Below, in pieces: positions 730 through 21,771 of a stretch of DNA of 64,000 nucleotides. Source of the stretch: Bacteriovoracaceae bacterium. GTDB lineage: Bacteria; Bdellovibrionota; Bacteriovoracia; Bacteriovoracales; Bacteriovoracaceae. The translations under genes and the position numbers were made by a program. The stretch is taken from the NCBI GenBank assembly GCA_029865945.1, contig JARXAH010000084.1:1-64000 (forward strand), read 5' to 3'. The notes under the pieces are model-generated. The model was not told where the DNA came from. It saw only the letters and a program-made list of their open reading frames with translations, and did no database searches. Position 1 is the first letter of the stretch; every line of letters begins with the position of its first letter.

Positions 730-2352
730 TTAATTTAGTCTCAACTCCTCAATGGTCTTAAGAAAATTTCCCTTGGTCAAAATACCTTTAACAAATGGAA
801 AGTCTTCTTTTTTGAGATGAGAATTTCCTGTATGAAAAAAAATTTCTCGCATCCCCAAATCAAAAAGTCTCTTTGCGACAAAGGATCCATCTCTTTGTTC
901 ACCGAGATTAAAATCCAAAAGAAAAATTGTTCCTTTTTGAAAAGTCCTTGCTTGCTTTAGTAATGTACTGATATCGCTAAAAACATCAACTTGCCTATGA
1001 AATTTTTCGAGAAGTTGCTTGTAGCGATAGAGAAGTGTTTGATCATCATCTAAAATAACAATGTTAGGAATTTCGTAAATGGGAATCTCAACAGTGAAAA
1101 TAGATCCACTGCTTTCGTTAAACTTTGTTTTGACATAAACATTTCCACCCCAACTTTCCGCCATTTCTTTAATATAAGATAGCCCTTGTCCTGTTCCATG
1201 GATTTTTGTTGTAAAACCTTTCGCAAATATTTTATTAAGAACAGATTCATCTATTCCTGTCCCATTATCTTGAACTGAAATGGAAACACAGTTTTCTTTT
1301 ATTATCGCGTGAACCGTAATATTCTTTTGTGATTCATTACAGGGTACGGCCACAGCGTTCTCCAGTAAATTTGAGAACACACGGTAGAAGGTATTGGAAT
1401 CAACTTTGATTTTAATGCACTTGGAGATTTCTGAATCAAAATTGATATTTACCTTAGGCGTATTTTTCTTATATTTGATAGCACTTTGCTCCATCAGCTC
1501 ATTCATAAGATCAAATACAAAGTGAGGAACTTCTCTAACCGTCGTCACGATTCCATCTTTATGATGGGAAATATTTCCAAAGGCATCGCGAATTTTTCCC
1601 AAAGTTTTTCTTATCTCTGCGGCTTTATCTTGTTCTGATAGATCATATGTTTGCAAATCTAAGGTCGCAATTTCGCTTTGAGTATCATGAATTATTTGCC
1701 TAATAATGTTGGCAGATATTTTTTCTTTTTCAGCTTGAATGGCCTTTTGGTAGTAAGGTATCAAAAAATATTTTTTAGAAAGAAAAAACCAAAATAGCCA
1801 CAGAGAAAGTATAAAAAGAAAAATAGGTAATCCATATTGAAGTACAAAACCAAAGACACTTTCGGCCATAAATTGAAATCTATCTTCCATTACAACGGTG
1901 ATTGATCCAAGACGTGATCCGGCCAAATTTAAATCGGCCTCATAAACAAAATTTTGCCCCTGTTTGTTAAAATTGCAAGGAATATCCTGGAAATCCTGAT
2001 TTTTTGAAAAAACGCATTTCTGTCCTTGCTCACTGTAGAGATACAAATCAAAGTTAGGGGAAGAAAATTTTTTTAGTGAACTCTTTATTCTAAGAAAAAC
2101 CGATTCATAGCTTTTCGTAAAAAACTCTTCAACGATATAACGATAATCACTATTAATTCCCTCATTGAGAAGTGACTTAGTAATCTCAGATCGCCCTTGC
2201 TCTTTTTCTAAAAAAGAAGTAGAGAGGTAATACGCACCTAGTCCAAGTCCCATCATAATAATGAGAATCGATCCATAAAAAAATATGGTTATAGGTCGAT
2301 GCATGGGGTTACTGTTAGATCGTCCCATGGTATCCAATGCCTTTTTGATCAA
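730..2352 (-). CDS. hybrid sensor histidine kinase with C-terminal receiver domain
   Basis: A 540-residue membrane sensor kinase. TM1 is about 21-42 and TM2 about 167-191, enclosing a periplasmic sensing region of about 120 residues with two cysteines. The dimerisation helix carries IIHDTQSE with the probable phospho-accepting His222. The ATPase domain shows the N box (LLENAV, about 330), DNGTGID (362-368) and GTGQGLSYIKE (386-396). A receiver domain fills 429-540, with DDD at 435-437 and the phosphorylatable Asp480 in LLDFNLG. It is the last gene of the operon and overlaps the transporter fusion upstream by 38 bases. That coupling suggests it senses the same ligand, with the NtrC-type regulator at the head of the operon as probable partner. 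The ligand is unknown. Confidence 0.9.
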   Translation of the reverse strand: MIKKALDTMGRSNSNPMHRPITIFFYGSILIIMMGLGLGAYYLSTSFLEKEQGRSEITKSLLNEGINSDYRYIVEEFFTKSYESVFLRIKSSLKKFSSPNFDLYLYSEQGQKCVFSKNQDFQDIPCNFNKQGQNFVYEADLNLAGSRLGSITVVMEDRFQFMAESVFGFVLQYGLPIFLFILSLWLFWFFLSKKYFLIPYYQKAIQAEKEKISANIIRQIIHDTQSEIATLDLQTYDLSEQDKAAEIRKTLGKIRDAFGNISHHKDGIVTTVREVPHFVFDLMNELMEQSAIKYKKNTPKVNINFDSEISKCIKIKVDSNTFYRVFSNLLENAVAVPCNESQKNITVHAIIKENCVSISVQDNGTGIDESVLNKIFAKGFTTKIHGTGQGLSYIKEMAESWGGNVYVKTKFNESSGSIFTVEIPIYEIPNIVILDDDQTLLYRYKQLLEKFHRQVDVFSDISTLLKQARTFQKGTIFLLDFNLGEQRDGSFVAKRLFDLGMREIFFHTGNSHLKKEDFPFVKGILTKGNFLKTIEELRLN

Positions 2353-4669
2353 TGCGATAAATGATCACATCTTTTTTAGGCGTATTATCTTGATCAAATT
2401 GAAATTCACTAGAGGTAAGTAGATTTCTCCCATGATAATTTTTGAGCGATTTCCGAATACTTTCTCCGGTGATTGGCCCCTTAATTTTAAGGATACTATC
2501 AAATAAAATAGATGCAGTATCATAAGCGATGGCACTCCATGAGTTCGGGCGATCATGGTAAGTTGCTAAAAATTTTTCTCTGAAATTTTTATTTTCTTTA
2601 GTACTACTCTCTTCATTCCAGTAAACATTTCGGTACGCAGTAAATGCTTGCGGCCCTTTTTGTTCTTCAACTAGTCTTTTGTAAACAGACTCATTAGTTC
2701 CCCATCCATCAGAACCTATGTAACTTGGATAAAATTTTTCCTTAATGGCCTGGGAATAAAATCTAAAGAGATCACTTTGGTAGCTTAATAAAATGACTTG
2801 CGTAACATTTTTCTCTTTGAAAAATTTTATTTCCTCTGATAAGTCTTTTTGATTTTTTAAAATCTTGCGCTGAATAACATTTATTTTTGGATTCAGAGAA
2901 CTTATTTTTGCTAAAAACTCTGCGCTTAAGTACTCGCTATAGGGATAGGAAATGTTGTTAAGAATGCCTATAGACTCTGGTCTTAATTTTTTGGATACAA
3001 AGTCAGCAAGCTTCTGTGCCACAAGAGTATCAGATATGCAGGCCCTAAAAACATAAGGTCTATTTTTGGTAACATCCGGGTTCGTCGCGGTTGGAGTAAT
3101 CAGTACAATATTTTTATCTTTTATCACTTCTGAAATCGCCATGGCCTCATCGCTGTTTTCTCCGCCTATGATAACTTGATTTCCTTCTTGTACTGCTTGA
3201 GTTGCTGCACTAATCACAGAAGTGAGTGCTTCGCTATGAGAATATTTTTTAAAATTGATTTTTATATTTTTTTCTTTCTCATAAACCGTTTTTGCAAACT
3301 CGAACCCTTTATCCATGAAACCAACCGATCCATTAAATTTATCTTGAAATCGAAAGATGAGAGCAACGGAAAACTCTTTTTTGTTGGAGGCCGCAAAAAT
3401 GCTGTTATTTGGTGATGCCAATAAAAATAAAATGAGTAGACAGAAAATCCCAGGACAATTTAATTTTCTCTTTTGAACCCCATAACATATTGCGATAACT
3501 AGCACAGGATAAATAAGATAAACTCCTGAAGAAATCAAAGAAGATGCAAGTAGTAGCAACGTAATGATGCTTAAGATTTTTTTTCCAATTGAGGAAGATG
3601 TTCGAAGAAAAGAAATGATACATAAAACATAAATGGTAAGGAAGTTCGCACTAACCATGATAAGTCCTTTATTCAAAAATTCAGGAAAAATCATTAACGC
3701 TAATAAACTTAAAGAAAACAAAGAAATGAGTAAATAAATAGGATTTTTTTGATTTCCTACATTTTCAGGAAGTGCTAATGAAGATGCGGAAACTTGGATC
3801 ATATAAATTAGCCCCCTAATCCAACTCATAAAATTAATCTTGAGGGCGAAAACGGAAAGGAGAACAATTATTCCTCCAGATAGCCACCTTGGTGAGACTT
3901 CTTGGGATAATTGATAGATTCCCATGACGGATTGAATTTTATCGTAAGAAATAATGGCCGCGTAATTTGCAGTGACGCCTAAGTAAACTAGGCCACAGAT
4001 AATCAAGGAAAATACCATGGATACTAAAAAATCTCTTCTGGGATTTTTAAATTCGTGGGCAATGAAACTTAAATTCTCAAATCCGGCGAACGCCCAAAAT
4101 GCCATTGTAATTCCAATGAAAGTTTTCCCTAAATCAAAGTCGGGAATTAATTTGTCATAACCTAGTGAGGCTTTTGGGAAAGTTATAAAAAGAAGTAGAA
4201 TAGAAAATACAAAAAAACTTAGTGAAACAATATTGATCATGCGTTCACTTGCACTTTTGCCAATTAAATTGGCGATTACACCGAAACCAAGTAAATAGAC
4301 TGCGACCATGTATTCCAAGTGTTCAATTTGAAAATAATTTTGTACAAATTTTCCCACAATGATGGCCGAAGATGGCATTCCAATCATAATGGTTGAAAGC
4401 ATAAGAGTGGGAAATATCGCTGACCAAGTTTTCCCAAGTCCAAGCTCAATAAATCCTTTGACGCCTACCTCTGGCCTTACATGTTTTGACATGTCATAAA
4501 ACATCATTAGTAGCGGAATACATAGCAGCGTGGCCATGATCCAACTAAGAAGAACATTTGCGCCACTTAGCTGATAAGTTAAAGATGGCAAAAAAAGTAT
4601 TCCAGACCCCATAATTGATCCAACGCCGTATGAGATACCACTTAAACGGCCAAGTTTGGGAATTTTCAT
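2315..4669 (-). CDS. APC-family permease fused to a periplasmic binding-protein domain
   Basis: 784 residues in two parts. Residues 1-400 are an amino acid/polyamine/organocation permease with about 12 hydrophobic segments. The TM1 motif GSIMGSGILFLP is at 17-28 and the TM6-like AFWAFAGFE at 190-198. Residues 430-784 are a type I periplasmic ligand-binding domain of the Leu/Ile/Val-binding class (ITPTATNP, PYVFRACISD, YIGSDGW). Between them, residues 404-428 look like a preserved signal peptide (hydrophobic stretch ending FAAS), which would put the binding domain outside the cytoplasmic membrane. The start ATG overlaps the stop of the diiron-enzyme gene (ATGA). This architecture is unusual: APC permeases normally work without a binding protein. 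It may be a transporter-receptor working with the neighbouring kinase. Confidence 0.85.
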   Translation of the reverse strand: MKIPKLGRLSGISYGVGSIMGSGILFLPSLTYQLSGANVLLSWIMATLLCIPLLMMFYDMSKHVRPEVGVKGFIELGLGKTWSAIFPTLMLSTIMIGMPSSAIIVGKFVQNYFQIEHLEYMVAVYLLGFGVIANLIGKSASERMINIVSLSFFVFSILLLFITFPKASLGYDKLIPDFDLGKTFIGITMAFWAFAGFENLSFIAHEFKNPRRDFLVSMVFSLIICGLVYLGVTANYAAIISYDKIQSVMGIYQLSQEVSPRWLSGGIIVLLSVFALKINFMSWIRGLIYMIQVSASSLALPENVGNQKNPIYLLISLFSLSLLALMIFPEFLNKGLIMVSANFLTIYVLCIISFLRTSSSIGKKILSIITLLLLASSLISSGVYLIYPVLVIAICYGVQKRKLNCPGIFCLLILFLLASPNNSIFAASNKKEFSVALIFRFQDKFNGSVGFMDKGFEFAKTVYEKEKNIKINFKKYSHSEALTSVISAATQAVQEGNQVIIGGENSDEAMAISEVIKDKNIVLITPTATNPDVTKNRPYVFRACISDTLVAQKLADFVSKKLRPESIGILNNISYPYSEYLSAEFLAKISSLNPKINVIQRKILKNQKDLSEEIKFFKEKNVTQVILLSYQSDLFRFYSQAIKEKFYPSYIGSDGWGTNESVYKRLVEEQKGPQAFTAYRNVYWNEESSTKENKNFREKFLATYHDRPNSWSAIAYDTASILFDSILKIKGPITGESIRKSLKNYHGRNLLTSSEFQFDQDNTPKKDVIIYRIDQKGIGYHGTI

Positions 4670-5463
4670 ACTAATTGCCCTTGATCGATCACTTCATTAA
4701 TCGCATTCCAATATAACCTCCAAAAATGCACCGCTTGATTAAAACCACTCAAAAACTCACTCTTACTTTTTTCGCAAGGACAAAAGCGAAGGAAGTTGGC
4801 CACATTAAGTCTGATATGCTCTTTCTCTGCAATTTTATGAATACGAAAGAAGGACGATTTTTCTACAAGTTCACTACTTTCCTCATCATAAGACAGAGCA
4901 TCAAAGAGAGTTTGAATATTTTCTTCGGCATCAATCTCAAGGCCAAGTAATATGCCTAAAGACATTCCATCTGTAGAAGCATTGGTCATAATAGTTTTTA
5001 GATATTCAAAAGGAAATTTACTCAAGTTCTTCGAGATCAGATTTATTCGATCATGATCCGTAATCCCGATCTGCTGCAAGCAATCTAAAAATAAATCTGG
5101 ATGGATTAATCTGTGATTTCTACTTCCAAGTTCTTCAAAGATAATTTGGACAATGTAGTGCCTCATTAAATTGTTACTGACCTGAGCAGAAGCAATACTC
5201 ATCACCTTTGGTGCAAGAGAAGAAAAATGATGCCAAAATGTTCCAATCACTGCCGCTTTTGTTTTATTTCGGAACTTAAGTCGCATCCATGTTTCTTCAA
5301 AGATTTTATCCACATTGGCCATTTTATAAAACATATTGGTCCATTCAATAACTTCAGGTGAATCAGAGTCATAAATATTTTCAAAGACTCGATCACTCCT
5401 AACGATAACTTCTAAATTTTCTAACATTTCCTTGTGGGCGACTTCACTTAACATCTCAGACAT
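4666..5463 (-). CDS. haem-oxygenase-like diiron (HDO/TenA-fold) enzyme
   Basis: This 265-residue, all-helical soluble protein has the spaced ligands typical of haem-oxygenase-like diiron oxidases and oxygenases (the UndA, BesC and PqqC-like superfamily). The pattern is EEL...H in IIFEELGSRNHRLIH (E110/E111, H117/H121), a Glu at GLEID (E176), then H209, E213 and H216 in FRIHKIAEKEH. Known members oxidise fatty acids or amino acids using O2 and iron; the substrate cannot be told from sequence. The gene follows an SDR dehydrogenase by 11 bases and overlaps the permease-receptor by 4 bases. The enzyme pair may therefore make or alter the molecule that the transporter/sensor handles. The fold call is good; any specific reaction is inference. 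Confidence 0.7.
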   Translation of the reverse strand: MSEMLSEVAHKEMLENLEVIVRSDRVFENIYDSDSPEVIEWTNMFYKMANVDKIFEETWMRLKFRNKTKAAVIGTFWHHFSSLAPKVMSIASAQVSNNLMRHYIVQIIFEELGSRNHRLIHPDLFLDCLQQIGITDHDRINLISKNLSKFPFEYLKTIMTNASTDGMSLGILLGLEIDAEENIQTLFDALSYDEESSELVEKSSFFRIHKIAEKEHIRLNVANFLRFCPCEKSKSEFLSGFNQAVHFWRLYWNAINEVIDQGQLV

Positions 5464-5474: not shown

Positions 5475-6188
5475 CTATTTGTTGTAGGGCGAATGTTGGG
5501 GACGAATTGTAATTTCAGTGGGACAGGCCGAAGTGGGTAAACTAATGGCCCATGACACTGAAAGAGCAATATCATCTGGTTGAATCATTTTTTCAGAAAT
5601 TAAATTATCGCCTCTTCCCATGTCAGTATTAACGTAACCAGGAAAAAGACAGGTAACTTTAATATTTTTTTCGCGAACACTATCAAAAAGGCAATTGGAG
5701 TACGCCCTAAGCGCGTGCTTTGTTGCTGTATAAATTTCGCCACCTTGATAGGTCATAAGGCCCGCCACCGATGAAATATTAATAATGGCCCCACCGTTCT
5801 TAGATATCGCTGGAAGAAGCTGGTTCGTTAAGTGATAGATGGAACGAAAGTTAAGATCCAAGCAGTAGTCCCAATCTTTTAAACTGGATGTGTAGGGATT
5901 TCCATTTACATATGTTCCTGCGTTATTAACAAGGTAATCGAACGAAGGAAAAACATTTAAAATGCTTTCAAGCAGTTTTGGAATTTTATCTATTGCTGTT
6001 AGATCAAATGGAAATATTTCTGATCTAATCCCAACTACGTCACAGTTTTTTTTTACTTTTTTTAGTTGAGTCTCATCTCTGGCAACAAGTGCCAGATTTA
6101 CCCCTTCACTGGCCAATCGATAAGCAATGGCCTCGCCAATTCCTCTTCCAGCACCAGTTATAATGGCGACCTTATTAGTAATTCTCAT
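5475..6188 (-). CDS. short-chain dehydrogenase/reductase (classical SDR)
   Basis: 237 residues with the full classical SDR signature: the cofactor loop TGAGRGIGEA at 11-20, NNAG near 89, catalytic Ser in NISSVAG, and YTATK (YxxxK) with PG after the following strand. It is a soluble NAD(P)H-dependent oxidoreductase acting on a hydroxyl/carbonyl group. The length and intact catalytic triad suggest an active enzyme. It overlaps the small upstream gene by 14 bases and precedes the diiron enzyme, consistent with a two-step oxidation pathway inside this operon. The substrate is unknown. Confidence 0.9.
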   Translation of the reverse strand: MRITNKVAIITGAGRGIGEAIAYRLASEGVNLALVARDETQLKKVKKNCDVVGIRSEIFPFDLTAIDKIPKLLESILNVFPSFDYLVNNAGTYVNGNPYTSSLKDWDYCLDLNFRSIYHLTNQLLPAISKNGGAIINISSVAGLMTYQGGEIYTATKHALRAYSNCLFDSVREKNIKVTCLFPGYVNTDMGRGDNLISEKMIQPDDIALSVSWAISLPTSACPTEITIRPQHSPYNK

Positions 6189-6390
6189 CGCATTTCTCCG
6201 TAGTTATGGTTTGAAATAGTTCTTTAAATTTTCCTTCAAAGTTTTTTATGGCACCCAGTACTTCTTGCACGTCATAGGCCTTGGGGTTTTTACTATTTGA
6301 TAAATCAATGACTATGCAATTGAAGCATGTGTTTACAAGATCAAGATCTCGCCTTAGTTTATGAATCTTTTTTTGTGTTTCAATATTCAC
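6175..6390 (-). CDS. small helical protein of unknown function in the sensor operon
   Basis: 71 residues, charged and predicted helical, with two cysteines (FNC) and a third near the C-terminus. It overlaps the regulator gene upstream by 4 bases (ATGA) and the SDR gene downstream by 14 bases, so it is translationally coupled to both and very likely real. I do not recognise a family. It could be a small phosphotransfer or adaptor protein, but no conserved HPt motif is seen. Confidence 0.65.
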   Translation of the reverse strand: MNIETQKKIHKLRRDLDLVNTCFNCIVIDLSNSKNPKAYDVQEVLGAIKNFEGKFKELFQTITTEKCDENY

Positions 6391-7745
6391 GCATCAACCT
6401 CACTTATTTTTTTGTCCCTTAAGTGATAAAAAAGTGTAGTCCTTGAAACTTGATAGGCCTTGGAAATTTTATTTTTATTTCCGCCATGTTCTTTAAGTGC
6501 AAAATCAAAAAACTCCCCTTTAATTTTATCAAGTAACGCAGAGAGACTTTGATGTCCCTTGGCAAAATCGATTTGATTTTCGGTCAGAAGCCAATCTTTA
6601 CTTAATTCGGCAACAGATTCGCGACCAACTTGTAAATATTTCTCTAAATGCGCTGGAGTAACGATTCCTCCCTTAACATCAGAGAGTCTGTTGATGAATT
6701 TTTGTAATTCCCGAACATTTCCTGGCCAAGAATACTGAAGAAGGATCTCTTTTGCCTGCTCATCTACGAAAACACTCCTCGTTGCTTGATTGAGAAAATG
6801 CTTTATCAGCATTTTGAGGTCATCTTTTCTCTCTCGCAAAGGGCGCAAGTAAATAGTTTTTCCTTTTATTCTGTTATAGAAATCCGGTCGAAGCTTTCCT
6901 TCTTTAACAAGGGATTCTAAATTTTTAAGTGTTGCCGTTACCAGCAAAAAGTTGGAGCGGATTCTTTTTAGGCCACCAACTCTTGTAAATTCTTTTTCCT
7001 CAATAACTTTTAAAATAGTTTCCTGAGTCGTTAAGGGCATGTCTCCAACTTCATCGAGAAATAAAATTCCGTTGTTTGCTTGTTCAACTTTGCCCATCTT
7101 TAATCTATCCGCACCAGTAAAAGCGCCTTTCTCATGGCCAAAAAGTTCTGACTTAATAATTTCATCATTTAGTCCTGCACAGTTTAACTCAACTAATTCT
7201 CCCTCTATCCCCAGCAGTGACTTTAGACATTTCGCAAGTTGGGTTTTCCCAACTCCAGATTCACCACTTATGAATATTGGCTCCATCGGACTAAACGTAG
7301 TGCATACATCTTCAAGAGATTCGATAATATCTTTGTCCTGAGTCAGATAAGTTGTTTTGGTGAGTCGCTCCACGTTTTTGCGAAACTCTTTGGAGTTAAC
7401 AACTTTTTTGATAAAAATATCTAATTTTTCTTTCAAGTTACTTTTCTTCACAAAATCATCGACTCCATTTTGATAGGCCTGTTGAATTAATGCATCATCA
7501 TTTTCAAAATAAGTGACAGCAATGACGTGCCTTATTCCTCTTTGCTTGCATAGTAGTGCAATACGAGGGCCAATGATTTCATCATTGATTTCAAGATCAA
7601 CAATAGCGCAATCAAATTTAAAATTTTGAATCAACTCTTCCGCTCTTTCCAAGGTGCTTGCGTGAAGTAATTTTCCGTAGTTAGAAAGATTTTTGGAAAG
7701 GAAATCCAGAAAACTGGGATCATCTTCAATTACTAAAAAGTTCAT
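6387..7745 (-). CDS. NtrC-family sigma-54 response regulator
   Basis: 452 residues in three domains. The receiver domain (1-115) has E7/D8/D9, the phosphorylatable Asp50 and Lys near 100. The AAA+ sigma-54 activator domain has Walker A GESGVGKT at 161-168, the sigma-54 contact loop GAFTGA at 207-212 and Walker B ILFLDE ending at 232. A C-terminal Fis-type helix-turn-helix follows ([18 protein letters not shown]). All active residues are present. It is the first gene of the minus-strand operon and faces the conjugation island across a 229-base divergent region that holds an inverted repeat and a sigma-54-like promoter. It probably receives phosphate from the hybrid kinase at the operon end. 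Confidence 0.93.
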
Positions 7746-7974: not shown

Positions 7975-8355
7975 ATGAACGCAAAAAAACAAAAGGCCAT
8001 ATCCTCCATAGATTCACTGGACGTGAGAGGCGAACTTATCAAAAAGTCGTTTAACAAGTTTAATGATAAGGCACACAAGACAAAGAGTCATTATTCAAAA
8101 AAAGATTTAGAATTTGCAAAATGTTGCAAGGACTTTCTTCCAGATCATGAGCGAATAGTCGTTCATTTACATTTCTGGGAAGAGTTATCCCTCAGTGAGA
8201 TTTCCCATGTATTACATGTGTCTTTTAAACTTGTTGATTTGATTTTGCAAAATGCGATTAAACGGTTGCGTTCAATTTATGAAGATCATTTTCCCAGTAC
8301 TAATTTTATTCCATTGAACAGGAGGATTGAATCCATTGACATGAAATTTTATTAA
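7975..8355 (+). CDS. small HTH protein resembling sigma-70 region 4
   Basis: 126 residues. The second half (about 58-110) reads like a sigma-70 region 4 / HTH unit: LPDHERIVVHLHFWEELS, then LSEISHVLHVS and a recognition-type helix. The first half is basic and disordered. There is no region 2, so it is not a complete sigma factor; it is more likely a DNA-binding regulator of the island. GAGG lies 9 bases before the ATG. It is the first gene of the plus-strand cluster of conjugation-type genes. Confidence 0.6.
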   Translation: MNAKKQKAISSIDSLDVRGELIKKSFNKFNDKAHKTKSHYSKKDLEFAKCCKDFLPDHERIVVHLHFWEELSLSEISHVLHVSFKLVDLILQNAIKRLRSIYEDHFPSTNFIPLNRRIESIDMKFY

Positions 8356-8368: not shown

Positions 8369-8848
8369 ATGTTTATTTGTAAAATTTTAAGAAAATTATT
8401 TTCTAAGAAACTTAAACCAATGGAGAGCTTTCACATGCAGGCCATGCAACTCATTCAAAACCAAGAACTCGAAGGGAAAAACCCTAATATGTTTTACCTT
8501 TGGTGGTTCAACAAAAAATCCCAAAAGAAATTTTGCGCTGGACGGGCATTCTATTCAGAGAAACAAGGTGATTTTCGCTTATTTATTAACCTACTTGAAA
8601 ATAGCTCAAATGGCGGAAAGCGTGAAGAGTATTACCTTCGCCCCGCCCAAGTGAGTGATGATTATACTTATTTCAAAGTAGAAAAAATCATTCACCATCC
8701 GGATCGATCCCATCGCTTTTGGGTGGGAGAAGCTTTTCGAAGTGTTGAAACCAACGGCGACATTCATATCCAAATAGAGCCACTAACAGGATTTTATAAA
8801 AAATTAGTTCTAAACATGAATCAGGAAAAGGACAAAACCCATGAATAA
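8369..8848 (+). CDS. unknown protein, second gene of the conjugation island
   Basis: About 159 residues, no signal peptide, basic N-terminus (ILRKLFSKKLK) and many aromatic residues (FYLWWF, HRFWVGEAF). I chose ATG 8369, with AAAAAGG ending 8 bases upstream, over the GTG at 8360, which sits on the Shine-Dalgarno itself. It overlaps the pilin-like gene by 8 bases, so it belongs to the same transcript. No family is recognised. Confidence 0.6.
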   Translation: MFICKILRKLFSKKLKPMESFHMQAMQLIQNQELEGKNPNMFYLWWFNKKSQKKFCAGRAFYSEKQGDFRLFINLLENSSNGGKREEYYLRPAQVSDDYTYFKVEKIIHHPDRSHRFWVGEAFRSVETNGDIHIQIEPLTGFYKKLVLNMNQEKDKTHE

Positions 8849-9137
8849 GAAAATTATTATTTATGTATCCCTTGTGCTGCTTGCTATGGCCATTGCTTTG
8901 CTTCCTGAAATGTCCTTTGCTCAAGTGGGAGGATTTGACAGTAAGGTGAATAGTCTAACTAATCTCATCGTTGGAAAGATTCTTCCTGCGGTAGCGGTCT
9001 TCGGTCTTATTTATGCGGCCATCTTGGCAGCGGCCGGAGATGAAAGCAGTAAAAAAAGAATGGTCTTAGTGATTGTTGCATCCATTGTAGGAATTCTTGC
9101 TAAATTTATTGTTCCCATGTTTCAAGGAGCGGTTTAG
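8841..9137 (+). CDS. virB2: VirB2/TrbC-like pilin subunit
   Basis: 98 residues with a long signal peptide (cleavage likely after SFA, about 28), then two hydrophobic helices joined by a short charged loop (GDESSKKR). This is the layout of VirB2/TrbC pilins of type IV secretion systems. Mature length is about 70 residues, normal for the family. The following gene begins on the last base of its stop codon, and that gene is VirB3-like, the canonical order. Confidence 0.75.
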   Translation: MNKKIIIYVSLVLLAMAIALLPEMSFAQVGGFDSKVNSLTNLIVGKILPAVAVFGLIYAAILAAAGDESSKKRMVLVIVASIVGILAKFIVPMFQGAV

Positions 9138-9472
9138 TGGAAGCACTTGAATCATCAATTGTTCATAGAAATCTTGATACCAAATTAAAAATTGGGCCTC
9201 TGGAGGCCCTTGATTTGCTTGCGGCCCTAATCATTTCTTCTTTTATGGGATTTTTCTTTGATGGAGGAGTGCTTGGTTTTATTTTTATATTTCTTGTTCC
9301 ACTACTTTTTCTAGGAGGACTTTTTTTTGTGAAAAGAAATCGGCCAGAGAATTTTTTGCGCGACTTTATTCGTTTTACTTTTAAGCGGGGATTCTACGGG
9401 GCCTCATGTGACCTAATAGAATCACAAAACATGAGTCAAAAAATTTATATCAAGAGTGATGCTCATGAGTAA
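9137..9472 (+). CDS. virB3: VirB3/TrbD-like inner-membrane protein
   Basis: 111 residues with GTG start at 9137, which shares its first base with the previous stop (TAGTG). A pair of adjacent hydrophobic helices (about 25-66) is followed by a basic tail with NRPENFLRDF and a glycine/aromatic motif. It fits VirB3/TrbD by size, topology and position between the pilin and the VirB4 ATPase. Sequence similarity alone is weak. Confidence 0.65.
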   Translation: MEALESSIVHRNLDTKLKIGPLEALDLLAALIISSFMGFFFDGGVLGFIFIFLVPLLFLGGLFFVKRNRPENFLRDFIRFTFKRGFYGASCDLIESQNMSQKIYIKSDAHE

Positions 9473-9653
9473 GGCCGATCTTATGCAGGTGTTAGCATTG
9501 AACCTGGAACAACTCGGGTGTCTTGGGCAATACGCCCAAGAGCATCTCGATAATGAAGAATGGTTTGAACTAAATGAACTTCTCTACAGTGTGGAGGATG
9601 AGTATGAAAAATTGACTGAAATATTAAGCACCATCAAGGAGATGCGTCCATGA
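9465..9653 (+). CDS. small helical protein between virB3 and virB4
   Basis: About 62 acidic, helical residues. The frame has possible starts at GTG 9456, ATG 9459 and ATG 9465; I chose 9465, with AAGAG ending 8 bases before it. It overlaps the VirB3-like gene and its stop overlaps the VirB4 start (ATGA), so translation is coupled. No family is recognised; a chaperone-like or assembly accessory role is only a guess from position. Confidence 0.5.
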   Translation: MSKADLMQVLALNLEQLGCLGQYAQEHLDNEEWFELNELLYSVEDEYEKLTEILSTIKEMRP

Positions 9654-12067
9654 AAGGAAATCAGTTTACAAATATCGGTGATCAGTTACCTTTATGGCAT
9701 TTCGAAGATGATACTTTGGTATTTCAAGATGGATCCTTAGGGGCCGGATTTTCGCTGCAAGGACTCGATATCAGCACGACTACAAATGAGGTGATTAATG
9801 GAATATGTTCTTCGATTAGCAACCTAATTAATTCACTTGAAGAAGGACTTCGCATTCAGGTTTTTTATAAAGTTTCCTCAGATGTATCCAAAATAATCCA
9901 TAAACATAAAGAATCGATTTCGCAAAATGATTCCTTAAATTTCTTGATTGAAAAGAGGTTAGACTTCTTTAAAGAAAATGAGGCCCAAGGAAACTTTTAT
10001 CGCCCAGAAATTTTGTTTTTTATAAGAAGTAAAAACTTTTCCAGGAAGTCATCCGGTTTATTTGCAAGAACAGCTAGGTTTTCTCAAATGATGAAAGAGG
10101 AATTTAATTTGCATTTTGAAAATTTTCAAAGGCAAGTAACATTAGTGAGAGGTCATTTAGAAAACATGCAGTTAGATGCAAAAAAACTTAGCCACGATGA
10201 GTGGTTCAAGGAATTGTTTCAATATTTCAACCTAAAGAGATCACAAACTATCGGCTCGCCAAAAGTAACAGTAGATGTGGAAAAACTTTCACCTTCACTA
10301 CTTAAACAACTCATCTTAAGTGATCTTTTCGTTCACAGAGATTACTTGGAAATTGATCGAAAATTTTTCAAAGTAATCAACATGGGAACACTTCCTGATA
10401 AGACATCTGCCGCGATGGCCGAAAGATTAACCAAACTTCCCTTCCACTATTGGGTGTCTCAAAGTATCGAAGTTGGAAACCAAAAAAAAGAGGTTGATTT
10501 TTTGCAACTCAAGCGAAGAATGGCCTATTCTATGGCCGCTGGCTCCAAAAATGTTTCTGATTTGGAATCTGAATCTAAGCTTGAAAATTTAGAAGGGTTA
10601 CTTCAAGAGCTTATTGGGGGAAATGAAAAAGTTTTAAACATGGGGCTATGTTTTATTATTTGGGGCGACAGCGTTCAAGAGCTGCAAACAAAGTCTGATC
10701 AAATTTTACGTGAGTTGAGATCACTTAACAACGCTGAAGGCATAATTGAGTCTATGAGTAATTTAGATAATTTTATAAAATCCTTTCCTGGAAGCTGCGA
10801 GAGCTACACCCGAAAGAAAGTAAAAACTTCTAATGCGTCACACCTTTTTCCAATATTTGCTAACTGGAGTGGAAACTCTAGGCCAGTTTGCCTTTTTCCT
10901 ACGAGAGACTTAACGCTCTTTGGAATTGATCCTTTTGCTCCTGAGCTTCCTAACTGGAACGGGCTAGTTGTGGGGGGAAGCGGAAGTGGCAAGTCGTTTA
11001 CCTTGTCGAGTATTATGCTTCAATTTGCAACCCAAGCACCCAGTCCAAAGATTGTGATTATTGACAATGGAAGATCGAGCGAAAATTTGGTGAAGGTGCT
11101 TGGAGGAGAATTCATTGATGTGGGATTAAACTCACAAATTTGTTTGAATCCTTTCGAATTACCTAAGGGCGAGAAAACACCATCAAGCATAAAGATAAAA
11201 TCAATTCTTGCAATCCTTGAATTAATTTTTAGAGATGAGCAAATGTCTTATCTTCCCAAGAGAGATAAATCACTTTTAGAAGAATCCATCATGAGGCTCT
11301 ATGAAGTATGCACTGATACACCAACACTAAGTGATTTAAAATTAATGCTTGATCGGCACAGTGATCCCTCTATGAAAAAGTATGGGGATATTTTATTTTC
11401 TTGGACGGGGAATTCTGCATTTGGAAAAATATTGGATGGAAAATCCAACATCACTTTGCAAAAAAATATTACCGCCATTGAAATTAAAGGACTTGATGAT
11501 TTTCCTGATCTGAAAGACGTCTTTATGCTTCTTGTTACCAATTTTGTTCAAAAAGAAGCGGAAAGTGATTTATCAACTCCTTATGTTTTAATCTGTGATG
11601 AGGCGCACCGCCTCTTTAAGACCCCATCGACTAGGGATTACATCCTCTATTGCTACCGTGTATTTAGAAAATATAATTGCTCTATTTTTTGTATCACGCA
11701 AAATCACAAGGATTTTTTAAGTATCCCGGAAGTGGCCGAGGCGATTTTTCCCAACACAACCCATGTTTTTATTTTGCGGCAAAGAAAAATTGATTGGGAG
11801 GATTTCCAAAAAACTTTTGATTTCACCAATTCAGAAATTGAATCCATTAAAAGTTTGCAAATCAAGAAGCGAGAATTTTCAGAAGTCTTTTACATGCAAG
11901 ATGAAAAAAGGGCCATCCTTAAAATTATTCCTGATAGCTTTAGCTACTGGATTTGTACCAGTGATGGTAATGATAAGGCCAAAATCGAAGAACTAAAAAT
12001 GCAAAACCCCGATTGGCCTATTGTCCAGGTTCTGAAAAATTTAAGTGAAAAAATTTATGAGGCGTAA
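9650..12067 (+). CDS. virB4: VirB4/TraC-family conjugation ATPase
   Basis: 805 residues, the usual size for VirB4. The N-terminal half is the CagE/TrbE/VirB-type domain. The C-terminal ATPase has Walker A GGSGSGKS near residue 443-450 and Walker B VLICDEAHRL near 645, followed by a conserved TQNHKDF sensor region. It acts at the cytoplasmic face of the inner membrane, powering pilus assembly and substrate transfer. This is the most secure type IV secretion gene of the island. No VirB11 ATPase is seen in the window, so VirB4 and the FtsK-like protein are the only motors. Confidence 0.92.
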   Translation: MKGNQFTNIGDQLPLWHFEDDTLVFQDGSLGAGFSLQGLDISTTTNEVINGICSSISNLINSLEEGLRIQVFYKVSSDVSKIIHKHKESISQNDSLNFLIEKRLDFFKENEAQGNFYRPEILFFIRSKNFSRKSSGLFARTARFSQMMKEEFNLHFENFQRQVTLVRGHLENMQLDAKKLSHDEWFKELFQYFNLKRSQTIGSPKVTVDVEKLSPSLLKQLILSDLFVHRDYLEIDRKFFKVINMGTLPDKTSAAMAERLTKLPFHYWVSQSIEVGNQKKEVDFLQLKRRMAYSMAAGSKNVSDLESESKLENLEGLLQELIGGNEKVLNMGLCFIIWGDSVQELQTKSDQILRELRSLNNAEGIIESMSNLDNFIKSFPGSCESYTRKKVKTSNASHLFPIFANWSGNSRPVCLFPTRDLTLFGIDPFAPELPNWNGLVVGGSGSGKSFTLSSIMLQFATQAPSPKIVIIDNGRSSENLVKVLGGEFIDVGLNSQICLNPFELPKGEKTPSSIKIKSILAILELIFRDEQMSYLPKRDKSLLEESIMRLYEVCTDTPTLSDLKLMLDRHSDPSMKKYGDILFSWTGNSAFGKILDGKSNITLQKNITAIEIKGLDDFPDLKDVFMLLVTNFVQKEAESDLSTPYVLICDEAHRLFKTPSTRDYILYCYRVFRKYNCSIFCITQNHKDFLSIPEVAEAIFPNTTHVFILRQRKIDWEDFQKTFDFTNSEIESIKSLQIKKREFSEVFYMQDEKRAILKIIPDSFSYWICTSDGNDKAKIEELKMQNPDWPIVQVLKNLSEKIYEA

Positions 12068-12755
12068 ATTATTAAGGGTTGTGATCCTTGGAGGATTTTT
12101 ATTTTACTCACAATTTGGAGTGGCACAAATTAGTGATGGTAGTGGCTGGGCCAACTATGTTTACCTGGTTAAAATCTACGGCGAGAATTTGCGTCGCTAC
12201 TACCAGCTAAAAGAAATGATACAGCAGGCGCACAGACACGATCAGTACATTCGCATTCTCAACGAAGGCCTTAATGGCGCAACTGGACTCATGGAAGTAC
12301 TCCCCGTTAGGGACGAAAGAATTCTCTCACAAATTAGAGAGTTTCAAGGGGCATTAAGTAAAATTGAAGAAATCTACGGACTGATTCCAAAAAGCTCAGA
12401 TGAAGCGCTTCAAAGATTACACGACTTAACAATTGCAGAGAGTTTGAAAATTTCTATTGCCTCAAGAGACTACGCCGAAGTCCAAGAATCAAATGCACAA
12501 AGGGTTTTCGTGCAAAGTGCGGCCGCATCTCCCAAAGGAGCGGCCCGCATGGCAGCTCAGGCAAATGCACAAATTCTGCATTCGCTAAGTCAACTCCTTC
12601 GCCTAAACGGTCAAATGCTAAAAATGCAAAGTGAATCCTTTGCCTTAACCAACAAGGAAGAGAAAGACTCTTCTGAAAATTTTAACAAAACAAAAAAGGA
12701 CTTAGGAAAGGCCATGAACAAACTTAAACCCAATTACGAGTTTCCGAGGTTTTAG
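12045..12755 (+). CDS. VirB5/TrbJ-like secreted protein
   Basis: 236 residues with a signal peptide (hydrophobic 10-25, cleavage near GVAQ) and a long, largely helical mature part. Near the C-terminus is an Ala-rich stretch (AAASPKGAARMAAQANAQ) as in VirB5/TrbJ proteins. It starts at GTG 12045 inside the end of virB4 (23-base overlap); ATG 12057 is an alternative. Its position right after virB4 supports a minor pilus-tip or surface protein. The family call rests on size, secretion, helix content and context. Confidence 0.6.
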   Translation: MKKFMRRKLLRVVILGGFLFYSQFGVAQISDGSGWANYVYLVKIYGENLRRYYQLKEMIQQAHRHDQYIRILNEGLNGATGLMEVLPVRDERILSQIREFQGALSKIEEIYGLIPKSSDEALQRLHDLTIAESLKISIASRDYAEVQESNAQRVFVQSAAASPKGAARMAAQANAQILHSLSQLLRLNGQMLKMQSESFALTNKEEKDSSENFNKTKKDLGKAMNKLKPNYEFPRF

Positions 12756-12756
12756 C

Positions 12757-13524
12757 TTGGATATCGATCCAAGGGTTGTTAAGGGATTAGATAAAAAATA
12801 CGTGGCCCTCTATGCAAGAACTTCTGTGGCCGGTAAACAAGAGAAGGGACTTGATGCTCAGGTGCGGGCACTAAGGCGCTACTGCCAAGAGAAGGAAATC
12901 ACGAACTACGCAATTTTTGAGGACGAAGGTATTTCTGGAACGAAAGATTCCAGGCCAGCTCTCAATAAAATGATGCAAGAAGTGATGGCCGGAAGAGTGG
13001 AAAAAGTAGTAGTTTATTCCTTTAGCCGGTACGCAAGATCCACAACCCACCTGCTCAATGCGCTTACTACCTTCAAAAAAGTTGGCGTATCGTTTTTGTC
13101 CTTAAGTGAAAATTTGGATACTAACACTCCTTTAGGTTTAACTGTTTACACTATCATATCCGCATTAGCGCAACTGGAGAGGGATCTCATCTCTGAAAGG
13201 GTTCGAAATGGACTTCGCGCGGCCAAAGAAAGAGGCGTTAAAGTTGGAAGAAAAAAAATTCGTCCCTCGCAGTTAATTCGCACTCTTCGTAAATCAGGAC
13301 TAACTTACAAAAGCATTTCGGCCATTGCCAAAGTAAGCCAAGGGGCCATCGCTACTGAACTTAAAGAGTGGAAAAAAGAAAAGGCAGAAGGGAACGAACA
13401 AATTTTTCCATCAGACATTCCTGCACCAGAAGTTATTGCCCCACCTAAAGTTGATTCGCAAGAAATTATTCAAACTCCAGTAGCAATGGAAGTCCGCTAC
13501 CATTCTGGAGAAATGGCCACATGA
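12757..13524 (+). CDS. serine recombinase (resolvase/invertase type) inside the transfer operon
   Basis: 255 residues with TTG start one base after the previous stop. The catalytic domain has ALYARTS (nucleophile Ser in YARTS), EDEGISGTKDSRPAL, YSFSRYARS and the E-helix ALAQLERDLISERVRNGL. A Hin-type HTH follows (TYKSISAIAKVSQGAI), then a Pro-rich tail of about 50 residues not found in ordinary resolvases. Its stop overlaps the start of the VirB6-like gene (ATGA). A recombinase built into the middle of a secretion operon is unusual. It may resolve island dimers, or may be a domesticated insertion co-translated with the operon. Confidence 0.85.
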   Translation: MDIDPRVVKGLDKKYVALYARTSVAGKQEKGLDAQVRALRRYCQEKEITNYAIFEDEGISGTKDSRPALNKMMQEVMAGRVEKVVVYSFSRYARSTTHLLNALTTFKKVGVSFLSLSENLDTNTPLGLTVYTIISALAQLERDLISERVRNGLRAAKERGVKVGRKKIRPSQLIRTLRKSGLTYKSISAIAKVSQGAIATELKEWKKEKAEGNEQIFPSDIPAPEVIAPPKVDSQEIIQTPVAMEVRYHSGEMAT

Positions 13525-14384
13525 TCGAGTGGCTTCCGCAAGTTTGCCGTGAGTTACATGGAGAGATGGCCAAACTTTATTGGCTCTTACTTTTACCAGT
13601 CATTGTTTTCTTACTCATTTTAGAGATGTTGAAATCTGGAAATCAAATTCCTGATGGCGGAAAGATTCTGCTTCGCACAGTTATCTCTATACTACTAATT
13701 GCTTCGTTTAAAGAGACGATCAATCTTGTAGCAGTTATGGGAGACGGAATTGCCAACCGCATTGATGGGCTGGCCAAGATGGGAAAATTGATGGATTTGT
13801 TTTCAGAGAATTTTTCAAGAGATGCGCCGGCACTCTATAAAATTAGAGAGCTATTTATTTTCTTGTTGAATTTTTTGTCCTACTTTCTTGCCTACCTCGG
13901 AATATTTATTTCAGATGCACTTCTTCACTTTACTTGGTCAGTACTCTACGTCTGTGCGCCACTAATGATTCTTTGCTACATCCCTGAGCAAACAGCGCAT
14001 GTGTGCAAAAATTTATACAAAGGACTACTAACCGTGATCACTTGGAAATGCCTGTGGTCGATTTTGGGTGTACTTCTTTTGAAACTTGCAGTGGAGAAAA
14101 CAACTGAAAATAGCGACAACCTTATTACCACGGCCGTTATTAATCTTTGTATTGCCTTAAGTATTTTAACCGTTCCCTTCTTTGCAAAATCATTTATTGG
14201 GGACGGAGTTGCAGGCTTTGCATCCAACATTGCAGGAGTTGCAGGACTCAGCGTTTTAAGGGTTTCAAAAAACTTGGTTCAATCAAAAGTAAATCCTAAA
14301 TCCTGGGGTAGATCAAAAATTCAAAACCCCAATGAAAAAAATTTTAAATTTCAAAAACACAAAGGAGGAAAATGGAACAAGTAG
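13521..14384 (+). CDS. virB6: VirB6/TrbL-like polytopic membrane protein
   Basis: 287 residues with about six hydrophobic helices: near 20-36, 50-65, 110-132, 140-152, 170-186 and 200-225. A Gly/Ala-rich segment (GVAGFASNIAGVAGL) and a basic cytosolic tail follow. The topology matches VirB6/TrbL channel components. It is coupled to the recombinase upstream (ATGA overlap) and overlaps the VirB8-like gene by 13 bases, whose AAAGGAGG Shine-Dalgarno lies in its 3' end. Confidence 0.7.
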   Translation: MIEWLPQVCRELHGEMAKLYWLLLLPVIVFLLILEMLKSGNQIPDGGKILLRTVISILLIASFKETINLVAVMGDGIANRIDGLAKMGKLMDLFSENFSRDAPALYKIRELFIFLLNFLSYFLAYLGIFISDALLHFTWSVLYVCAPLMILCYIPEQTAHVCKNLYKGLLTVITWKCLWSILGVLLLKLAVEKTTENSDNLITTAVINLCIALSILTVPFFAKSFIGDGVAGFASNIAGVAGLSVLRVSKNLVQSKVNPKSWGRSKIQNPNEKNFKFQKHKGGKWNK

Positions 14385-15001
14385 AACATCAGTACGTGAC
14401 CAGTATAGTAGGAGAGCAAAAAAAATCAAATTTCTTGAAAACCATTTTGCTCATTCTTACTTTTGCTAATGTTATTTTATGCGCTTCAGTATTGGCCTTT
14501 ATTTTATTTCCCCAAATTGTCATCCTTGAAAAGGAGGGTTTGGCCTTAAGCTACCAAGGAGTGAGAAAAGAAATTGTTATCACTCAAGATGAAATTAAAA
14601 AAATGGCCCAAGATTTTATTAAAGCTCGCTATGAATGGGATCAGTTTGATTTGGATCAAAAACTTGACGAGCTTGCTTCATTCACAACACCAGGGCTTAA
14701 AGAAAAGCTAGAGATGGATTTTAAAAAAAATTTGGAGAGCTTTAAAGTAATTTCTCAATATGTCGGAAAACTAGAATTGAACACCCACCCTAATGGAGTC
14801 ATTGATGTTAAATTTGATAAAATTTTGCGTCTCACTGCTAAACCTCAAGGAGATGATGCAAGCGCGCTGAGTAGTATGCCTGAGAAAATTCCACTTTTGT
14901 CTCAAACACAAGTGCAACTACAAATCGCGAGAGGAAAAAAACTACCATCAAACCCACTGGGAATTTATGTTAATGCGCTTACGGAATATGGAAGTAACTA
15001 A
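14372..15001 (+). CDS. virB8: VirB8/TraE-like inner-membrane protein
   Basis: 209 residues: a short cytosolic N-terminus, one TM helix (about 23-46) and a periplasmic domain of 160 residues with a helical start (QDEIKKMAQDFIKARYEW) followed by beta strands. This is the VirB8/TraE arrangement, a scaffold linking inner-membrane and core complexes. It has a strong AAAGGAGG 5 bases before ATG. Its end overlaps the signal peptide of the next gene, the usual virB8-virB9 coupling. Confidence 0.7.
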   Translation: MEQVEHQYVTSIVGEQKKSNFLKTILLILTFANVILCASVLAFILFPQIVILEKEGLALSYQGVRKEIVITQDEIKKMAQDFIKARYEWDQFDLDQKLDELASFTTPGLKEKLEMDFKKNLESFKVISQYVGKLELNTHPNGVIDVKFDKILRLTAKPQGDDASALSSMPEKIPLLSQTQVQLQIARGKKLPSNPLGIYVNALTEYGSN

Positions 15002-15722
15002 GTTGGCGATTGTTTGTTTTTCCTTTTTGCTTTGCAGCGCTCTGCAGGCCAAAAGAAAGGAAATAAGGGAAGTTTATACTAATGATCGGGAGATGAAGAC
15101 GATTAACCTCACCATGGGAAGGTCAACCATTCTTAGTTTCACTGAAAAACCAGTCAAAGTTGTTCTTGGAAACTCTACATACTTTAATGTGGAATTTCTG
15201 GGTAATGACGTAACCCTCCAACCACTAGCGCAAGTACCGACAAATTTATTTGTGTATACGCAGCAAAAAAATAAATATGGATTTCAGCTAAAGGTGGGAG
15301 GAGCAAATTTATATGACGACCTGGTTTACGTCTTTTGGAAATCGAATGGTGAAATATCAATGCTCCAAAAAGAAAGAAAACCAATTGCCAGCTTAAGTCC
15401 ATTTTCTTTCACACTGGGAAATTTAGAGTTTCATGGAAATAAACTTTTTTTACTTTCAGGAACAAAAACCTACATTATGGATTTCACTATTAAAAATAAA
15501 GGGAGGCGCACCATCAAAACAGATGAGTTTCAAATTTTTGTCTCCAGAAATAGTGAAAGACTTAAAGGGCAGAAAGTTGTTTTTGATAAAGAGCAAATTT
15601 CTATGCACGATGCGGCCAAGGGAAGATTATTTTTTCCAAGTGATCAGGTTGATGGCCTAAAACTTTATGTGCTTCATAAGAAAAAAACTAAGGTGAAAAA
15701 TTTATTAAAAAAATATCTATAG
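14988..15722 (+). CDS. virB9: VirB9/TraK-like secreted core-complex protein
   Basis: About 244 residues. I start it at ATG 14988, which begins directly with a signal peptide (MEVTKLAIVCFSFLLCSALQ, cleavage near QA-K); ATG 14967 and 14973 are alternatives. The mature part is beta-rich with a first domain typical of VirB9/TraK (TINLTMGRSTILSF, VTLQPL, TNLFVYT). It would join VirB10 in the outer-membrane core complex. Its last codons pass over an AAGGTG sequence and a run of seven A, where the next gene must begin or be reached by frameshift. Confidence 0.7.
   Translation: MEVTKLAIVCFSFLLCSALQAKRKEIREVYTNDREMKTINLTMGRSTILSFTEKPVKVVLGNSTYFNVEFLGNDVTLQPLAQVPTNLFVYTQQKNKYGFQLKVGGANLYDDLVYVFWKSNGEISMLQKERKPIASLSPFSFTLGNLEFHGNKLFLLSGTKTYIMDFTIKNKGRRTIKTDEFQIFVSRNSERLKGQKVVFDKEQISMHDAAKGRLFFPSDQVDGLKLYVLHKKKTKVKNLLKKYL
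15690..15713 (+). promoter_or_regulatory. Shine-Dalgarno plus A7 run at the virB9/virB10 junction
   Basis: AAGGTG (15690-15695) is followed 8 bases later by ATT 15704, which is in frame with virB10. A run of seven A (15707-15713) reads A-AAA-AAA in the virB9 frame, 11 bases after the AAGGTG. A -1 slip there enters the virB10 frame. No ATG, GTG, TTG or CTG occurs in the virB10 frame between the stop at 15689-15691 and TTG 15833. Either a rare ATT start or a dnaX-like programmed -1 frameshift is needed. Confidence 0.5.
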
Positions 15723-16687
15723 GAAGTTGGACTGGAGGTATTACAGGATGGGTAAAAAATTATTTCACTGAGCTAGAGGGAGACAAAAGAGTCCTTAAAA
15801 AGAAAAGTATTAAAATAGCAGCAAGTATATTTTTGCTACTATTTTTTTGTTCTCAATTCATAGAGTCCAGTGACAATTCTTTTTTAAGTAAAAGTTTTCA
15901 ATCGCCCGATGCTTCTGTAACTAATCCTGGTAAAAAAGTGAATGAGAGCTTCTTTCCTTTTGTTAACGTCACAGAGAAAAAGAAGAAAAAAAGACAGGCC
16001 TTGCAAAAAATAAGGCCAATCAATTTAGTTTACAATGCGAAACAAGTTATTGAGAGAGGAAGTGATCCCTTGGGTAGTTCAAGCTTTATTCCAGGTGGAA
16101 CTAATTTCATTGGAAAACTTTTAACAGGCATTGACACAAGAGACAATTCATCATCGTGCCGAGTTATTTTGCCCTACTCTGTAAATCACCCGAAGGGAGG
16201 AAGAATTGAGAAGAACTCTATTTTAGTTGGCACTGCAACTTCAAGCGGAGAAAACGAAAAGGTTTTTATTCGTTTTTCTAAAATCATCACTCCAAGTGGT
16301 GAGGAATTTAAAATTGATGCAGAGGCCTTAAGTTCCAGCGATTATTCTCCCGGACTCCTTGCAGATTATCACAGTAATGCCGACTCAAGGCTTATGGGTT
16401 CTATTGCTCTCACTATGGTATCAGCGGCCGCAGAGGTGCTTACTCAAAAAACAATGATGGGAGGAGGAGCACTCCCGATGGGGATTGGGGTGAATCAGCC
16501 AGACCCCACTCTAAAAAATGCTGCCCTTCAAGGCGTATCCAGCGTGGCCAAAGAGGAAGCAAGTAAATCAATGCAAGGAGCACAAAGTGCTCAAGGATAC
16601 CAAACAGTTTCAGCAGACACAGATTTAATTATTCACCTATTGGCACCATTTTCCATGGAGACAATCAACAATGACACAAACCTCTAA
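15704..16687 (+). CDS. virB10: VirB10/TrbI-like core-complex protein (start uncertain)
   Basis: From ATT 15704 the product has about 327 residues: a cytosolic N-terminus of about 38 residues, one TM helix (SIKIAASIFLLLFFCSQF), a linker with a basic patch (KKKKKR), and a C-terminal TrbI/VirB10 beta domain. That domain shows the family pattern GTNFIGKLLTGID, SCRVILPYSV and RIEKNSILVGTA, ending with LIIHLLAPF. The first ordinary start codon, TTG 15833, lies in the middle of the TM helix and would destroy the membrane anchor, so it is unlikely to be the real start. Its last 17 bases overlap the FtsK-like gene. Confidence 0.75.
   Translation: MKKISIGSWTGGITGWVKNYFTELEGDKRVLKKKSIKIAASIFLLLFFCSQFIESSDNSFLSKSFQSPDASVTNPGKKVNESFFPFVNVTEKKKKKRQALQKIRPINLVYNAKQVIERGSDPLGSSSFIPGGTNFIGKLLTGIDTRDNSSSCRVILPYSVNHPKGGRIEKNSILVGTATSSGENEKVFIRFSKIITPSGEEFKIDAEALSSSDYSPGLLADYHSNADSRLMGSIALTMVSAAAEVLTQKTMMGGGALPMGIGVNQPDPTLKNAALQGVSSVAKEEASKSMQGAQSAQGYQTVSADTDLIIHLLAPFSMETINNDTNL

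Positions 16688-20022: not shown

Positions 20023-21771
<1,749 letters not shown>

Follow-up and report, generated by a model that had tools for sequence, protein, structure and literature searches.

Systems that resemble single parts of the locus studied here have been described. In kinases activated by a solute-binding protein (SBP), the genes for SBP and kinase have been described as adjacent (PMC11113362). YjeH is a methionine efflux protein that also moves branched-chain amino acids (PMC10265765), and in the pvf/ham diazeniumdiolate-type clusters a diiron N-oxygenase helps to build an amino-acid-derived signal, the Pvf receptor being still unknown in 2023 (PMC10194917). In this study, we analysed a 64,000-nucleotide (nt) stretch of a Bacteriovoracaceae genome (contig JARXAH010000084.1; the window), in which one gene (4669-2315, minus strand, 784 amino acids) joins an APC-superfamily permease to a LivJ-like periplasmic binding protein (PBP) within an operon beside a conjugative type IV secretion system (T4SS). 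The best explanation overall, which we regard as evenly poised between right and wrong, is that exporter and receptor of a mobile element's signal circuit are united in the fusion; that this circuit serves conjugation is a more tentative proposal.

We compared the fusion protein with Pfam. AA_permease_2 (PF13520) matched residues 7-401 (E 2e-21, 76.9 bits against a cut-off of 27) and Peripla_BP_6 (PF13458) matched residues 469-777 (E 2.5e-27, 96.9 bits against a cut-off of 31.7). The initial annotation, made from the sequence alone, had placed an APC permease and a LivJ-like domain in one protein, and both this assignment and its coordinates were correct. An AlphaFold2 model of the fusion, built with 24 related sequences, reached a mean pLDDT of 90 and a pTM of 0.57. 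It showed 12 membrane helices in the permease half (8-24 to 382-401) and a confident two-lobed binding-protein fold at 432-783, whose Foldseek neighbours were LivK, LivJ and LIVBP (TM-score about 0.8, target-normalised). The joint (403-429) had a pLDDT below 50 and a single 11-residue helix at 406-416. The order of 12 helices, an Arg/Lys-rich loop and then a signal means that the binding domain very probably lies in the periplasm, as had been expected.

The permease motifs G17-S18..G21-S22-G23 in transmembrane helix 1 (TM1) and FWAFAGFEN in TM6 were invariant in our alignment A1. In the binding half, S506, T529 and D654, mapped via an alignment with Atu2422, were nearly invariant among relatives. 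We take them to be likely amino acid contacts, equivalent to Ser79, Thr102 and an acidic residue of LIVBP. At position 504, presumed to face the ligand side chain, Glu is found in the fused-type binding proteins and in that of genome G069, Phe77 in Atu2422, and Ile or another residue in most other PBPs of the cluster. E504 hints at a different ligand side chain.

We surveyed 129 genomes of the order for the fused gene. It was present in the genome of the window (G000) and in G007, G082 and G119, and a copy in G103 was interrupted by a contig end; the named records carrying it are Bacteriovoracaceae metagenome-assembled genomes (MAGs). The G007 fusion is 53% identical to the window copy, with an in-frame join, and the G119 fusion is split across two contigs with an exact 25-nt overlap inside the gene. 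The fused permeases formed one clade (support 100/99), showing that the fusion has a single origin in these data. Between the G007 and G082 copies (L035 and L036), the ratio of nonsynonymous to synonymous substitution rates (dN/dS) was 0.059 when calculated on the permease half and 0.043 on the binding half, and both halves are thus under strong purifying selection in this pair. Two in-frame TAA codons lie within a short substitution run in the permease half of the G082 copy (L036:3818-3835) and reflect an assembly error or a recent inactivation. In plasmid records, we found no match that covered 80% of the fusion.

Separate permease and PBP genes occurred in eight operons, seven of them further Bacteriovoracaceae operons and one from another family, compared with four fused genomes and the cut G103 copy. 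The gene order in G069 is that of the window, namely regulator, small open reading frame (ORF), short-chain dehydrogenase/reductase (SDR), haem-oxygenase-like diiron oxidase/oxygenase (HDO), permease, PBP and kinase. Its permease and PBP genes overlap by 8 nt, and this arrangement is likely the pre-fusion state. These findings indicate that the fusion was a one-time joining of neighbouring operon genes, an APC permease and a downstream secreted amino-acid-binding protein. The merger of two genes proposed in the initial annotation is thereby borne out, since relatives keep separate, overlapping genes in the same order.

The neighbours of the two halves point to their partners. In 21 loci the gene of an exported binding protein immediately precedes a kinase gene, either overlapping it or ending at most 3 nt away; 4 of these binding proteins are fused, 9 free LivJ-like and 8 OppA-like. 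In the window the fusion and kinase genes overlap, as previously noted, by 14 nt when counted from the conserved ATG at 2328; the alternative first-listed kinase start, TTG 2352, would give 38 nt. Permease and PBP genes are direct neighbours in 3/8 unfused HDO-type operons, and in the other five a gamma-glutamylcyclotransferase-like gene or an SDR gene stands between them. For L041-L045 and L065, the reading of the intervening gene as an SDR was rejected, as it is gamma-glutamylcyclotransferase-like. HDO and permease genes were adjacent in all 14 loci where both were seen. Because the constant neighbour of the binding protein is the kinase, whether or not the permease is adjacent, the binding protein is better read as a kinase receptor, and the binding half probably acts through the kinase. 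The transceptor suggested by the initial annotation is therefore not the best reading: the binding protein constantly pairs with the kinase, and the permease, which is exporter-like, with the diiron enzyme. The fusion joins the last make-and-move member of the operon to the first bind-and-signal member.

In the kinase, two long helices flank residues 61-157, a periplasmic sensor domain with an invariant Cys (C118); H214 in the DHp domain is also invariant. A C-terminal receiver domain is present on the kinase in most operons. The fold search with the kinase model returned the ordinary kinase core only. We found no LivHMGF genes near the fusion, unlike the situation of a LivJ-like paralogue on contig C82, which is followed by four genes matching livHMGF in size and order only.

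The chemistry of the operon was examined through its enzymes and its permease. All six metal ligands of the HDO are invariant (E111, H121, E176, H209, E213 and H216; three His and three Glu), in the 3H/3C pattern that defines the HDO superfamily (PMC13108848). Its nearest solved relative is BesC, the 4-chloro-allylglycine synthase (E 5e-4), an amino-acid-fragmenting enzyme. Several related operons carry a gamma-glutamylcyclotransferase-like protein instead of the SDR. The best NCBIfam match of the permease was PRK11021 (YjeH, L-Met/branched-chain amino acid exporter) at 111.7 of 284 bits; the YjeH equivalog cut-off (NF008245) was not reached, and the permease is YjeH-like only. By its sequence, the permease is probably an exporter, and the parts would fit the export and subsequent sensing of an amino-acid-like product. 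A DUF985 cupin gene lies between the regulator and HDO genes in the unfused second operon of G119 (L044:5448-5924).

The signalling operon stands head-to-head with the T4SS in the window, G007, G082 and contig C8 of G119, all fused, and also at G067 C78 (unfused) and G000 C75. Candidate parts of a pheromone circuit (synthase, exporter and receptor) are thus linked to a T4SS. The T4SS went unmentioned in the initial annotation, and its adjacency to the fusion changes the likely purpose of the gene. The position of the sigma-70 region-4-like gene at the start of the divergent operon is conserved in L035, L036, L091 and L093. In G007, the whole block is flanked by two tyrosine integrases next to mutM, and the site is uninterrupted in G004. 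This region of G007 (C1:126-168 kb; L082, L035 and L119) contains two integrase-T4SS elements in tandem, and mutM is adjoined by an integrase in G005, G008 and G016 as well. We found no useful paper on Bacteriovorax conjugative elements.

Related elements carry other genes in the same places. A second T4SS element in the genome of the window (L093; contig C75, 1475-8840) has an operon with a regulator 69% identical to that of the window, a DHp mini-ORF, a DUF6421 protein, an SDR, AzlC, AzlD, a Peripla_BP_6-like protein and a kinase, and this operon is divergent from a VirB4 gene 69% identical to the window's. Here AzlC/AzlD (TIGR00346 azlC) take the place of the APC permease, and the DUF6421 protein that of the HDO. 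Other T4SS elements of the family combine an OppA-like SBP, a kinase and a sigma-54 regulator with differing enzymes, in one variant a methyltransferase together with a B12-type radical SAM enzyme. Small-molecule cassettes carry a transporter or exporter gene; secreted-peptide cassettes carry a Sec-type signal instead. Among related T4SS elements, a change of receptor type goes with a change of presumed signal chemistry, which self-signalling predicts and which is hard to explain as nutrient sensing. It is possible, though we rate it somewhat below an even chance, that Bacteriovoracaceae conjugative elements carry interchangeable signal cassettes, each with a matching SBP receptor, kinase and sigma-54 regulator, by which an element would count its own kind and control transfer. 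The signal would be either an amino-acid-derived small molecule (HDO/SDR and exporter) or a secreted modified peptide (radical SAM or ICMT-like), and in one lineage exporter and receptor would be one gene product.

Further cassettes were observed beside T4SS genes. Loci L099-L103 and L105 (e.g. L100:8132-8479) encode a secreted peptide of about 115 amino acids with the C-terminus NPGI in five and EPGI in L105. The peptide gene adjoins genes for an ICMT/PEMT-like methyltransferase and an alpha/beta hydrolase; where they can be seen, genes for an OppA-like SBP, a kinase and a sigma-54 regulator are also present. By gene content, these loci look like a peptide pheromone system. Radical SAM operons with an OppA-like SBP and a kinase were found at L107:4700-10701, L111:1040-8949 and L109:2997-11606, those of L107 and L111 including a 121-amino-acid secreted peptide. 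No SBP-kinase pair was found in L106, L110 and L112, which have shorter or different flanks, and several elements are ended by contig ends.

The window operon consists of the sigma-54 regulator, a DHp-like mini-protein, the SDR, the diiron enzyme, the fusion and the hybrid kinase. The mini-ORF (62-71 amino acids) lies between the regulator and the SDR and was found in the window, L035, L036, L038, L039, L042, L044 and L093. A His is its sole invariant residue besides Met1. Its profile matched the DHp domain of the kinase from the same operon with P 7.7e-5, compared with P 0.21-0.47 for control segments, and one member matched HisKA at E 0.021. In G021 and G067 (L041 and L064), a mini-DHp segment is apparently fused to the N-terminus of the HDO. 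From these similarities, it is plausible that the mini-protein is a stand-alone phosphotransferase bridging the receiver domain of the kinase and the sigma-54 regulator.

Taken together, the circuit would work as follows. The HDO and the dehydrogenase would make or modify an amino-acid-like compound, which the permease, probably an exporter, would move. The binding half would reach the periplasm, either freed by signal peptidase or left tethered, and, once loaded, would engage the sensor domain of the kinase, whose gene follows immediately. The receiver domain of the kinase would then hand phosphate to the DHp-like mini-protein, and the mini-protein to the sigma-54 response regulator, under whose control the conjugation genes would stand. 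The coordinates of all features are given in Table 1.

Table 1. Features of the fusion operon and of the adjacent conjugative element in the window
Feature	Position	Strand	Remarks
Hybrid histidine kinase	730..2328	-	Two transmembrane helices, small periplasmic sensor, DHp, HATPase, C-terminal REC
LivJ-like type I periplasmic binding protein half	2318..3391	-	Residues 427-784
Joint: Arg/Lys-rich loop end and retained signal peptide	3392..3466	-	Residues 402-426; predicted cut SIFA-AS after A426
APC-superfamily permease half	3467..4669	-	Residues 1-401; 12 predicted membrane helices
HDO	4666..5463	-	Overlaps permease gene by 4 nt
SDR	5475..6188	-	Gamma-glutamylcyclotransferase-like protein instead in several related operons
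71-amino-acid DHp-like mini-protein, invariant His	6175..6390	-	Probable phosphotransfer link from kinase REC to response regulator
Sigma-54-dependent response regulator	6387..7745	-	REC, AAA+ with GAFTGA, weak Fis-type helix-turn-helix match
Sigma-70 region-4-like protein	7975..8355	+	First gene of divergent T4SS operon
Conjugative T4SS operon	8841..18877	+	Some genes named by position only
VirB2/TrbC pilin	8841	+	T4SS operon
VirB4/TraG ATPase	9650	+	T4SS operon
Resolvase	12757	+	T4SS operon
VirB8	14372	+	T4SS operon
TrbI/VirB10	15833	+	T4SS operon
FtsK-like coupling ATPase	16671	+	T4SS operon
Replic_Relax protein (relaxase-like)	18137	+	T4SS operon
Large serine recombinase	20019..21752	+	Probable integrase, right end of element

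We next consider the joint between the two halves. Residues N404-S428 of the fusion align with the signal peptides of free-standing orthologues, and the view that the joint is a former signal peptide was thus upheld. The free signal peptides end in NIFA-GS (L039), SLFA-ER (L044), GIFA-KQ and similar motifs (the hyphen marks the predicted cut), and those in the fusions in SIFA-AS (window), SLFA-SS (L035/L036) and SYGA-SK (L005). The hydrophobic run measures 10-15 residues in the fusions and 8-17 in the signals of the free-standing orthologues. Every fusion keeps, behind a cytoplasmic loop, a site like those cut by signal peptidase I. The further suggestion that the signal had turned into a membrane helix was not shown, as the run length is signal-like and the cut site persists. 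Retention of the cut site and of the short run would be expected if signal peptidase still cuts, whereas an anchor would require neither; cleavage is therefore no less likely than anchoring. By these features the product may be cut into a permease and a free binding protein, and we lean slightly towards the signal still being cleaved. Hydrophobicity was rejected as a proof of anchor versus cleavable signal, since TM12 of the permease is equally weak. An internal translation restart yielding a free binding protein was also rejected as a general route: the window copy has no ATG, GTG or TTG between codons 389 and 415, and a GTG of L035 in the restart region is absent from L036.

Several accounts of the fused product have to be weighed. 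All examined genomes are multi-contig assemblies, several of them MAGs, and the G082 copy carries two stops in its permease half, as might be the case if an assembly or annotation artefact had united two genes. However, the join is in frame in all four genomes, the copies form one clade, and dN/dS is 0.04-0.06 in one pair. An artefact is therefore extremely improbable; the independent copies rule out a frame error or chimera, so that the sequencing-error objection raised in the initial annotation fails, and we are nearly certain that the fusion is real. As to the form of its product, a cleaved polyprotein, in which the fusion matters for expression only and signal peptidase I would give equal permease and binding protein, is marginally the better bet. 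The short hydrophobic run falls inside the range of free signals, Ala at the predicted -1 position is followed by small residues in all fusions, AlphaFold2 builds no membrane-spanning helix at the joint, and the fusion gene still overlaps the kinase gene. Nevertheless, cleavage rests on sequence features, hydrophobicity cannot separate the joint from weak helices such as TM12, the -3 residues I, L and Y are not ideal (Y in L005 is poor), and no paper supporting the parallel with the FbcH precursor was found. This account is compatible with an exporter-receptor fusion in a signal circuit, as it concerns the product form only. We consider it unlikely that the product is a tethered receptor or true transceptor, with the joint as a 13th membrane helix and its own binding domain feeding ligand or coupling transport to kinase signalling. 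The window joint is the most hydrophobic (13-residue run; approximate dG -0.1), the fusion has been kept across about 50% protein divergence, and its gene overlaps the kinase gene; yet signal-peptide geometry and cut site are retained, the model has a low pTM and no confident joint, and in relatives the kinase pairs with a separate binding protein that has no physical permease link.

The purpose of the operon allows another account, in which the PBP and kinase sense an environmental amino acid, the permease imports it, the HDO and dehydrogenase degrade it, and the T4SS is a mere ride. Such a nutrient system agrees with the conserved amino-acid-type residues of the binding protein and with several unfused operons whose flanks, as far as read, contain no close relative of the T4SS. 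It has to contend with an exporter as the closest relative of the permease, with AzlC/AzlD in the same place in the sister element, and with enzymes and receptor type changing together on related T4SS elements, and we judge it rather improbable. A number of points weigh against the signal circuit in turn. The function of all parts is inferred throughout, including ligand, transport direction, cleavage, protein contact and target gene, and a nutrient system of importer and sensor would be built from largely the same components. The similarity to YjeH is far under the curated cut-off. In the flanks read, the T4SS is absent or only distant around the unfused operons of G021, G044, G219 and G119 C6, which means that the gene set cannot in general serve to control conjugation. 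The window begins at a contig end, and the left ends of the elements lie outside the mapped range. Finally, a search for a sigma-54 promoter, upstream of the regulator and inside the operon, gave no convincing candidate, and autoinduction is therefore unsupported.

If the signal circuit is true, it would mean that conjugation in Gram-negative bacteria can be controlled via a periplasmic SBP receptor and a diiron-enzyme product. Such a circuit would replace acyl-homoserine lactones or Gram-positive peptides, with parts apparently swapped between elements, and would offer a candidate receptor class for amino-acid-derived signals. The carriers are relatives of predatory bacteria. The fusion would also allow one to ask whether cleavage persists at a signal peptide that lies inside a protein, behind a polytopic carrier, and so how transporter-receptor fusions arise.

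In the FbcH cytochrome b/c1 precursor, a secreted domain follows a polytopic membrane protein in frame, and the signal peptide between them is cut. The layout is the same in our fusion, whereas the protein families differ and cleavage is predicted only. The neighbouring genes of LuxP/LuxQ, TorT/TorS and AgtS/AruS likewise place a periplasmic binding protein beside a membrane histidine kinase; here, however, the binding protein is fused to a permease, accompanied by an HDO/SDR pair and a DHp-like mini-protein on a conjugative element, and its contact with the kinase is proposed from gene adjacency. YjeH/AAE-type APC exporters are the best-scoring curated family, and AzlCD/BrnFE exporters have their counterpart in the AzlC/AzlD genes at the same position in the sister element. 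In contrast to these, the permease here scores below the YjeH cut-off and has gained a C-terminal binding domain, and its transport function is predicted by sequence. The binding half shares fold, domain family and probable amino-acid-contact residues with LivJ/LivK of the HAAT ABC importers, but it is joined to a permease, lacks neighbouring ABC transporter genes and carries E504 instead of F77 (Atu2422). ChpT and Spo0B are also DHp-like His phosphotransfer domains outside a kinase; the mini-protein is smaller (about 62-71 amino acids), has no CA-like domain, and its function is putative. In comparison with the pvf/ham clusters, the operon has no nonribosomal peptide synthetase, its HDO is nearer to BesC, and it includes a candidate receptor and kinase. 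With TraR/TraI, RapI-PhrI of ICEBs1 and cCF10/PrgX of pCF10, it would share the logic of a self-made signal governing transfer of the element, whereas the signal chemistry is different, the receptor is a periplasmic SBP with a kinase, the regulator is of the sigma-54 type, and signalling is proposed from the genes.

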